Shown in pieces: positions 27,117 through 29,740 of a stretch of 64,000 bases of DNA. Origin of the DNA: Helicobacter sp. 11S02629-2 (GTDB taxonomy: Bacteria > Campylobacterota > Campylobacteria > Campylobacterales > Helicobacteraceae); NCBI RefSeq assembly GCF_002272875.1, contig NZ_MLAN01000001.1:186001-250000 (forward strand), given 5' to 3'. The position numbers and the translations under genes were made by a program. The notes below the pieces were generated by a model, which was not told where the DNA came from, did not search any database, and saw nothing but the letters and a program-made list of their open reading frames with translations. Position 1 is the first letter of the stretch. Every line of letters starts with the position of its first letter.

Positions 27117-27461
27117 TTAAAAAAGCTCGCTGTTTTTTATCTTAAGTCTAGCGCCAACTTTTGCGCCCTCTATTATCTCTAGCTTTATAAGGCTTAGATC
27201 TAGGCTTTTTATACTCGGATACTTTATAAAAAGCAGTCTTGATATATCTAGCAAAGCGTCTTCTAGTAAGCCATAGCCTCCTTCTTCTAGTCTAGATTCT
27301 ATGCATCTTAAGATACTAGCGTAGTTTAAGTAGGCTTTGTTTGTGTTTTCATACTCATACTTTATCTTTGCTTTAAGCTTTAAGGCTTGAGGCTTAGCCT
27401 CGCTATCAAGTATGCCTATAACTGCTTTAAGCTTAGAATCTATCACAAGAGTAAAGACCAT
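27117..27461 (-). CDS. folB: Dihydroneopterin aldolase-like protein (FolB family)
   Basis: The 114-residue protein has the layout of a small T-fold enzyme: IGILDSEAKPQALKLKAKIKYEY (pterin-site strand region) and YASILRCIESRLEEGGYGLLEDALLDIS, where the Glu before DAL matches the catalytic/binding Glu of FolB. Length is typical (105-125). FolB cleaves 7,8-dihydroneopterin in folate synthesis. AAGGAG precedes the ATG at 27461. It is the last gene of the minus-strand run after the fucosyltransferase. The family is divergent in this phylum, so the call is moderate. Confidence 0.55.
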   Translation of the reverse strand: MVFTLVIDSKLKAVIGILDSEAKPQALKLKAKIKYEYENTNKAYLNYASILRCIESRLEEGGYGLLEDALLDISRLLFIKYPSIKSLDLSLIKLEIIEGAKVGARLKIKNSELF

Positions 27462-27470
27462 AGCCTCTCC

Positions 27471-28661
27471 TTATCTTAATATTAACTTTTTAAAAAAGTT
27501 TACCACCTTAGCAATTTTAGTAGTTTTTTGAAGAGGTATATTACCCCCCCCCCCCCCAGAATTAGGGTTATAAACAACATCAAATGCAGCTTCAAACATC
27601 TCTGTAAAAGCTGACACTTTAAGACTTTTTGGGCTTTTAGAGTTTGTATACATATAGTCTTTTTCTTCTAAAACTTCCCCTGTCTTGCAATCAAGCACTA
27701 TAAAATCCCTAGGCAGCAAGTCCATATTAGAATGTATAAAATGAAAAGGAAAGGGGGCGATTACCACTTTAGGATTTTCCATTAGATAAGCACCCCAGTA
27801 ACTAAAGCTAGAGTTAGCAGTAATGGCTCCTTTGCAAGCCTTCATAAGCTCTAAGTCAAGATAACCAGCATTTGGACTATTCAAGTTGACTACTTCATAA
27901 TCTAGCTTATTAAGCCCAAACAAAGAGATACCTTCTTTTTTAACCCAAGCAACATCATCACTAAAGATATAAAACTTAGCATTTGGACACTTTTGCAAAA
28001 CCAAAGCTATAGCCTTAGTGTAGTAGTTAACACCAAGCTGGGCATACTTGGTAACATTAACACTAGATAAGTAGTCACCTCTTCTAATATGTAAAAAGAT
28101 AGAATCTTGCTCTTTAATCTTAGTAAGCAAAGCTTTAAAAGCACTAACTTTCATAACAGGGAGGTGGTTTTCTTGTAAGCTAAAGTCTTTTTTTAGCTCT
28201 TCTTTTACATCTTCAAAGTAAAGCTCACTTTGAAAGTAGCCTATGATAAACTTATTTAAACACTTAGCTATCACAGCTTTATCAAACTCACCATTTTCGT
28301 AAGTTTCCATTAGCGTTTCTGGTAGCATATGAGGCACTTCTTTATTTTTATGCCGATAGCTTATAGTTTTTTTAGTGATTAGATAAATACCCTTTCTTGC
28401 AACTCTAAACATAAAGAAAAAAGCTTTATCTATAGTAGTCTTAAAGCCATGAAAGGCACTAGGTCTAAAAAAGCTTTTATCAACATTATACTTTAAGATA
28501 TCAGGCACTTCATAGCTGTGAATGTCATCACACACTAATATAACTTCTTGCTTTGCAAGCTTAGGGCTATTAGAGTTTCTTAGATGCTTTCTTAGATTCT
28601 TAGCAAAAGCATAGATAAAAAACTGATTCCCCAGTCTTCCTTGAAGCCTTATCTCTATCAT
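27471..28661 (-). CDS. futC: Alpha-1,2-fucosyltransferase (GT11) with 3' poly-C tract
   Basis: The 396-residue glycosyltransferase of family GT11 shows the N-terminal LQGRLGNQFFIYAFAKNL, the donor-site HIRRGDYLS near residue 190, KFYIFSDDVAWVK and ITANSSFSYWGAYL. GT11 enzymes transfer fucose from GDP-fucose in alpha-1,2 linkage to galactose; in Helicobacter they make H-type/Lewis b or y caps on LPS O-chains. A run of 14 G (27544-27557, C on the plus strand) encodes Gly369-373, followed by a basic tail of 23 residues ending NFFKKLILR. Slippage would change only this tail (see findings). A GGAGGT site lies in the end of the peptidase gene. The exact acceptor is not known. Confidence 0.85.
   Translation of the reverse strand: MIEIRLQGRLGNQFFIYAFAKNLRKHLRNSNSPKLAKQEVILVCDDIHSYEVPDILKYNVDKSFFRPSAFHGFKTTIDKAFFFMFRVARKGIYLITKKTISYRHKNKEVPHMLPETLMETYENGEFDKAVIAKCLNKFIIGYFQSELYFEDVKEELKKDFSLQENHLPVMKVSAFKALLTKIKEQDSIFLHIRRGDYLSSVNVTKYAQLGVNYYTKAIALVLQKCPNAKFYIFSDDVAWVKKEGISLFGLNKLDYEVVNLNSPNAGYLDLELMKACKGAITANSSFSYWGAYLMENPKVVIAPFPFHFIHSNMDLLPRDFIVLDCKTGEVLEEKDYMYTNSKSPKSLKVSAFTEMFEAAFDVVYNPNSGGGGGNIPLQKTTKIAKVVNFFKKLILR
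27544..27557. repeat. Homopolymeric C14 tract (phase-variation type)
   Basis: There are fourteen C on the plus strand inside the 3' end of the GT11 gene. Long C/G runs mutate by slippage in this phylum and are typical of phase-variable surface genes. This is the only such tract seen in the window. Confidence 0.85.
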
Positions 28662-28663
28662 AC

Positions 28664-29740
28664 TTAAAGCACCTCCGCCCTACCATCTTTTAAAACCACT
28701 AAGTCTTCTATCCTTATACCAAAGCTTTCTGGCAAATAGATTCCGGGCTCTATAGAAAACACCATGCCATCTTCTAAGATAGTCTCACTTCTCTTTGTTA
28801 TAAAAGGCTCTTCATGTATATCTAAGCCTATGCCATGTCCTAGTGAGTGTACAAAGTATTTAGAGTAGCCTCCTTTATCTATAACATCTCTAGCTATAGC
28901 ATCAAGATCGCGTGCTTTCATGCCACTTCTTGCTTTTTTAGTCGCTTCATCTTTTGCTTTTTTTACCAAGTCATAGATCTTTTGGTGCTCTTTTTTAGTA
29001 AAGGTCTGAGTTTGAGAGAACTTAAAATCTTCTTTTATATAAGCACTTCTAGTCCTATCGCTGCAGTATCTTTCATACTTTAATCCAGCATCAACTAGCA
29101 AGCAGTCCCCTTCTTTTAAAAACACATCCTTACTAGGTAAAGCATGAGGCTTAGCGGCGTTGCCATTAATTGCCACTATTGGCTCAAAGCTTAAAGGATA
29201 GCTACCTTTATCTTCTAAAAAGCCCTTCATCTTAAACCATAAAAACTGCTCACTTAAACCTTTATCACCTTCAGTAAATAAGACCTTATTTATAAACTTT
29301 GAAAGTTTTTTATAAGCCTTTTTATTTAAAGCTTGAGAGTGTTTTAAAAGCTCTAGCTCATAAGGCTCTTTTATAGCCCTTAACTTTTGAGTAAAGTTTG
29401 GCACTTCTTTTAAGCTAACTTCATCTTTTAGCCTTAAGTACTCACTAACTTGCATCCTTAAAGGGTCAAAAACCAAGCTTTTTATCTTTTGCTTTTTTAT
29501 TAAAGCTAAAGCATCTTCTAGCAAATCACTAGATTCTACAACTTCTACGTTTTTACACTTTTTATACTTAGAATCTTTTATCTTTTCTTTGGCCTCTGTT
29601 GTATATCTAGCATCAGTTATAAAGTAGCCACTATCCCCATGTTTTAAAAACAATACATTATCGCAAGAAAAACCACTCTCACTATAAGCCGCACTTTCAT
29701 CCCTAGTGATGAAAGCCTCTTTTAAGATAACCTTTGACAT
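28664..29740 (-). CDS. pepQ: Xaa-Pro aminopeptidase/dipeptidase, M24 family
   Basis: The 358-residue metallopeptidase has a creatinase-type N-terminal domain and a C-terminal pita-bread domain. Metal ligands appear in LLVDAGLKYERYCSDRTRS (Asp, Asp), FVHSLGHGIGLDIHEEP (His), VFSIEPGIYLPESFG (Glu) and GIRIEDLVVL (Glu). It releases N-terminal residues before proline or cleaves X-Pro dipeptides. It sits between the PP-loop gene and the fucosyltransferase gene, with only two bases to the latter. The short length suggests PepQ/YpdF-type rather than the long PepP. Confidence 0.88.
   Translation of the reverse strand: MSKVILKEAFITRDESAAYSESGFSCDNVLFLKHGDSGYFITDARYTTEAKEKIKDSKYKKCKNVEVVESSDLLEDALALIKKQKIKSLVFDPLRMQVSEYLRLKDEVSLKEVPNFTQKLRAIKEPYELELLKHSQALNKKAYKKLSKFINKVLFTEGDKGLSEQFLWFKMKGFLEDKGSYPLSFEPIVAINGNAAKPHALPSKDVFLKEGDCLLVDAGLKYERYCSDRTRSAYIKEDFKFSQTQTFTKKEHQKIYDLVKKAKDEATKKARSGMKARDLDAIARDVIDKGGYSKYFVHSLGHGIGLDIHEEPFITKRSETILEDGMVFSIEPGIYLPESFGIRIEDLVVLKDGRAEVL

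Follow-up and report, generated by a model that had tools for sequence, protein, structure and literature searches.

A GT11 fucosyltransferase-family gene of Helicobacter sp. 11S02629-2 appears, with a probability we put at roughly 0.5, to be a C-terminal phase-variation locus: the predicted enzyme would be complete in every state of a poly-G tract near the 3' end of its gene, but would carry one of three C-termini, with membrane association or stability as the property most likely affected. The gene lies within a stretch of 64,000 nucleotides (the window) of a 1.88-Mb, 61-contig draft genome belonging to the Helicobacteraceae. Long poly-G tracts in Helicobacter slip at a high rate. As we envisage it, slipped-strand mispairing at the 14-base tract (G14) would switch the complete GT11 protein among a 23-residue basic C-terminus (tract length n = 14), a 14-residue basic C-terminus (n = 13), and five glycines followed by a stop (n = 15). 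All three states would yield the catalytic fold; what changes would most likely be performance on a lipid-linked substrate, via membrane association or stability, rather than production of the enzyme. We infer that tract length varies in the population from which the window derives, that the tails are functionally relevant for this gene, and that their effect is exerted through the membrane. A membrane role is plausible because two C-terminal amphipathic helices are said to anchor the H. pylori GT10 enzyme in the membrane (review PMC4202792).

Membership in GT11 is indicated by a Pfam match to PF01531 (E = 7.4e-25; 88 bits, cutoff 23.9) that covers residues 1 to 304, and by an HxRRxD motif (HIRRGD, residues 191 to 196) that is invariant in the same-genus orthologue. 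The AlphaFold model, which was built from five sequences and serves solely to place the domain boundary, is confident to approximately residue 338; pLDDT is <50 over residues 339 to 396, where low-confidence helices occur at 349 to 363 and 378 to 395. A phmmer search of solved structures with the GT11 protein found no relative, and Foldseek comparison of the model with the PDB gave weak matches, mostly to sugar-nucleotide-binding proteins (one below E 0.001; TM <0.45), so we claim no fold from Foldseek. The window gene is a deep branch on the GT11 tree. An alpha-1,2 specificity of the window enzyme is putative: GT11 counts among its members HH0072 of H. hepaticus, which has alpha-1,3 specificity (as cited in PMC4202792); H. 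hepaticus has two GT11 genes.

Coordinates of the GT11 gene, its parts, and its neighbors (window positions)
Feature	Position	Strand	Basis or remark
GT11 fucosyltransferase-family gene, 396 aa in deposited frame	27471..28661	-	PF01531
Catalytic core, residues 1-338	27648..28661	-	Pfam 1-304; model confidence <50 from residue 339
Linker, residues 339-368, nonconserved, probably disordered	27558..27647	-	Orthologue alignment; pLDDT ~30
G14 homopolymer on coding strand (C14 on +), five Gly including next T	27544..27557	-	Sequence; G14 at same place in orthologue (L054/L025)
Tail at n = 14 (deposited), NIPLQKTTKIAKVVNFFKKLILR, 23 residues, charge +6	27474..27542	-	Stop at 27471-27473
Tail at n = 13, VIYLFKKLLKLLRW, 14 residues, charge +4	27500..27543 (including stop)	-	
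TAA adjoining tract, stop for n = 15 right behind five Gly, no tail	27541..27543	-	
FolB-like gene (dihydroneopterin aldolase family), downstream of GT11	27117..27461	-	PF02152, E 9e-08; start 9 bases past n = 14 stop
Upstream gene, Xaa-Pro-peptidase-like by inspection, 2 bases before GT11 start	28664..29740	-	Gene order same in relative

The tract occupies codons 369 to 373 of 396, past the GT11 domain, as the sequence-only reading had claimed; it lies ~30 residues beyond the folded core defined by AlphaFold and Pfam, and a GT11 profile built from Helicobacteraceae genes ends 117 bases before it. Slippage this far past the catalytic domain is predicted to alter the tail alone. The three-frame translations of the same reading (23 residues at n = 14, 14 at n = 13, a stop at n = 15) were also correct. 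Thus, a frame change affects only the C-terminus (tails of 23, 14, or 0 residues), as in C-terminal phase variation, and the tract does not lie within the catalytic domain, where that of a futC-type on/off switch is found.

Comparison within the genus involves one relative (G001) and one genome per species, both with G14; the relative's orthologous locus is identical in DNA to a contig of Helicobacter sp. 13S00401-1, which was isolated from a Central Asian tortoise (PMC5566214). The window strain is probably the second tortoise isolate in that paper. The two GT11 proteins are 54% identical, gene order is the same, and the relative's G14 is at the orthologous position, whereas over the 90 bases on each side of the tract the two sequences align no better than shuffles. 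Given that about two-thirds of flanking bases match, all 14 tract bases would be kept by chance with a probability well under 1% (0.67^14, a rough estimate). An intact G14 between strongly diverged flanks suggests that the tract is under maintenance between the two species, and by this measure it is real biology, above chance. Runs of at least 12 G or C are scarce: the whole genome has just 15. In the window genome, four genes carry a tract past the catalytic domain, and every one encodes a glycosyltransferase: GT11, GT10 (L012), GT6 (L018), and GT2 (L019). The relative retains the 3'-end tracts of GT11 (L025), GT10 (L066), and GT6 (L069), with lengths that are identical in GT10 (G16/G16) and GT6 (G13/G13) as well.

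Several other features of these genomes were noted. Tracts placed early or mid-gene in the window genome occur in a GT4-like enzyme, a chemoreceptor-like gene, and a restriction-modification-like gene (all by inspection only). The chemoreceptor-like genes (L017, L062, and L071; likewise by inspection) carry G12 to G22 at codons 85 to 89 in both species, and in the relative this tract is present in more than one paralogue. The GT6 gene L018:2493-4418 (-) encodes a 641-aa protein with a fused N-terminal GT9 domain, and its deposited frame ends right behind the 3' tract; the relative's GT6 (L069, 331 aa) is without this fusion. The window genome (G000) has two GT6, two GT10, and one GT11 genes, a set that in principle may be able to make blood-group-like sugars; the host strain is probably reptile-associated. 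We rejected the TAA right behind the GT11 tract as a designed off state. TAA or TAG directly follows long G tracts in 7 of 15 cases in the window genome (1.2 expected locally; L009 to L023) and in 6 of 14 in the relative (1.1 expected; L057 to L071), and family-wide counts of the same kind are inflated by related rows. The excess occurs even where the G strand is noncoding, so a posttract stop is no evidence of design; judged from these counts, it is a DNA-context effect.

For the window gene itself, the amphipathic-tail idea is weak. Charge and hydrophobic moment, compared with random reads from the window, gave p ~0.015 (n = 14) and 0.003 (n = 13), two basic frames arose in 1.5% of dinucleotide shuffles, and best-frame charge alone gave p 0.05, all in tests devised after the tails had been seen; the basic character of the window tails thus appears only marginally above chance. 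In the relative, the three frames yield NTFRYGQ, VTPSDMVNKNFTGFKTFVENN, and no tail (an immediate stop), with charges of +1/0/none against +6/+4/none in the window. DNA behind the tract is alignable with that of the relative, where the frame equivalent to window n = 14 (read by hand) is interrupted by stops. Together with the absence of similarity between window and orthologue tails (p 0.13 to 0.81), this means that even the other member of the genus does not share the exchangeable tails. A tractless orthologue of the window GT11 was not found in the genus, represented by this one relative. We initially took the window tail for the equivalent of a conserved tail present in a separate GT11 clade (below), but rejected this idea when similarity tests detected none (p 0.29 to 0.98). 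The sequence-only reading had proposed that slippage preserves the catalytic part while exchanging two amphipathic, cationic tails: the former is upheld by Pfam and AlphaFold, and the tails are indeed cationic, if only mildly beyond chance, but an exchange of two amphipathic tails finds no counterpart in the neutral or very short, unrelated tails of the orthologue.

To place the locus in its family, we surveyed 121 genomes, in which 103 GT11, 74 GT10, and 9 GT6 genes were placed. A G or C run of at least 8 is present in or near 75 of the GT11, 48 of the GT10, and 6 of the GT6 genes. GT11 tracts fall into four classes: in the 5' part, mid-domain (H. pylori group), within a late catalytic motif, and at the 3' end. 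Those of the H. pylori type (C8 to C14) are at profile position ~155 to 161 of 323, in agreement with the earlier assertion that futC-type genes have the repeat mid-gene. The 3'-end class needs six changes on the GT11 tree and was therefore gained or lost more than once. In four GT11 genes (L032, L048, L134, and L156) a G9 run falls on the Trp-Gly codons of the FSxWGG motif, toward the end of the catalytic domain, so that a frame change there would cut the enzyme short. We also considered that mid-gene GT10 tracts are sited on a Trp-Gly-Asp motif, an idea contradicted by the sequences themselves.

A layout that would allow tail switching behind an intact catalytic domain, as postulated for the window gene, recurs in GT11 and GT10 relatives. 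Three GT11 genes (L183, L193, and L194, the last counted as tractless at the 3' end because its sole tract is near the 5' end) end in a basic amphipathic tail, e.g., NKIRLKLFKYLRNKLMQKGIL. In six others (L160, L185, L190, L191, L151, and L186), a tract sits just upstream of this conserved basic tail: one frame resembles the tail of the tractless homologues (p 0.003) and has a charge of +6 to +9, whereas the remaining frames do not match and are of lower charge, except that the n = 15 frame of L186 also matches, more weakly, and is not lower in charge. Likewise, in each of three GT10 genes (L240, L095, and L205) the one frame with a charge in the range +6 to +9 is similar to the tail of a homologue that lacks the tract (p 0.003 to 0.007). 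The deposited sequence is tail-on in L185, L160, L240, and L205 and tail-off in L190, L191, L151, L186, and L095. Between L185 and L190, the 90 bases that follow the tract contain a single difference, yet the tracts themselves are C12 and C13, respectively, which gives the two genes different tails. Within the GT11 tail clade, the tail frame has a pN/pS of 0.49 (pS 0.76) versus 0.92 and 1.28 for the other frames, by which measure the tail frame is under purifying selection. From these comparisons, gating of a conserved basic tail by a 3' tract is a design that recurs among GT11 and GT10 relatives; the role of that tail may lie in membrane binding, activity, or stability.

In a subgroup of three GT11 genes (L162, L182, and L195), one frame encodes a long basic tail (+10 in L162), with pN/pS of 0.73 to 0.91 in what is a low-information test, and the GT6 genes of the window genus have weakly similar basic tails (p 0.017). 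We rejected the GT10 genes of the genus as support for tail gating: their basic helix is positioned before the tract, which therefore cannot gate it. In four genes of the GT11 tail clade (L185, L160, L191, and L151), the tail frame either overlaps the following gene in the ATGA manner or stops within a few bases of it, and AAAGGA, the ribosome-binding-like sequence of that gene, doubles as the codons for the tail's conserved Lys-Gly; tail switching may thus touch translational coupling too.

The tract of the window gene may slip without consequence, its three C-termini being functionally equal and the 3' end merely tolerating tracts that would be lethal to the enzyme elsewhere. We consider this possible but somewhat unlikely: the tails are not conserved between the two species, the region past residue 338 is predicted to be disordered, and GT11 and GT10 of the genus each have three very different tails per gene, but a neutral G14 in a low-GC genome should decay, whereas here, as in GT10 and GT6, the tract is fully kept between flanks at background, and all four genes of the window genome with a coding tract past the catalytic domain encode glycosyltransferases. 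The related GT11 clade, in which one of three frames retains a selected tail, raises a different prospect, that one tail is required for stability or membrane docking and the other frames are functionally off, so that the locus is an on/off switch in disguise; the C-terminus of H. pylori GT10 reportedly determines its structure and stability (Lin et al. 2006, as cited in PMC4202792). That prospect is improbable for the window gene, of which two frames yield similar basic tails and whose orthologue lacks any.

The tract might instead tune the downstream folB by translational coupling, since the distance from stop to folB start would be 9 bases at n = 14, ~38 at n = 13, and ~79 at n = 15, or act as an RNA element comparable to the target of RepG, which recognizes a variable G-repeat in H. 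pylori tlpB (PMC8295292). We regard either as very unlikely: the relative's deposited frame ends ~58 bases upstream of folB, the 3' tract of GT6 has no close downstream gene on its own strand, and an Rfam search around the locus gave no match. Homopolymers are error-prone, and the genome is a draft, but an incorrect tract length or frame has a negligible chance of explaining the locus; the tract recurs at the identical site in a relative whose genome was assembled independently, and a one-base error would only alter which tail is deposited. We retain switching of the C-terminus on a complete GT11 enzyme as our reading; against it stand the unrelated, neutral to almost missing tails of the orthologue and the marginal basicity of those of the window. 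A broader proposal, that slippage in the Helicobacteraceae toggles a membrane-binding basic tail on intact blood-group-type GT11, GT10, and GT6 enzymes and so tunes the place and efficiency of their action and not their presence, with the window gene as one case having two interchangeable tails and a tailless form, is one we hold only tentatively and rather doubt.

C-terminal switching is not unprecedented. Snyder et al. reported C-terminal phase variation through 3'-end poly-G for H. canadensis in 2010 (PMC2823697), and a description from N. gonorrhoeae followed in 2016 (PMC5320596); these are the only two papers in which a full-text search, covering few subscription papers, found the term. 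The mechanism class is thus already named and described in the same bacterial family, and the window gene adds a case. Like the window gene, those of H. canadensis and N. gonorrhoeae have a long poly-G near the 3' end and three short C-termini, with the main protein still expressed. However, none of the eight such genes of H. canadensis was annotated as a glycosyltransferase, and the report contains neither a conserved tail nor a homologue-based test of the ancestral frame; on the other hand, the H. canadensis tracts varied in length among reads (PMC2823697), while the window gene is known from one genome. A 2010 study (as cited in PMC5320596) has a repeat near the 3' end toggling an attachment signal, as in the proposed tail switch, but there the signal is the sortase anchor of a surface protein rather than the tail of a cytoplasmic transferase.

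The futC gene of the H. pylori group belongs to the same enzyme family and likewise shows homopolymer switching of a terminal fucosyltransferase, but its tract is mid-domain and a shift destroys the catalytic domain. Eight GT11 genes of the family (L160, L162, L182, L185, L190, L191, L195, and L151) share with the window gene a tract past the domain and short alternative tails; their deposited states are mixed, and they form a separate clade of the tree with a conserved, selected tail that the window tail does not resemble. A full-text search with the same restricted access to subscription papers found no paper on phase-variable glycosyltransferase tails, and the tail-gating pattern in these relatives would be new if confirmed.

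It is common to regard the phase variation of host-mimicking sugars as an on/off matter. If 3' tracts do switch a membrane tail on an intact enzyme, a cell could reach intermediate levels of fucosylation through an equally cheap mutation, and such genes would be misread when on/off states are called automatically from genomes; for each GT11 and GT10 gene, comparison with homologues predicts which frame would be tail-on.
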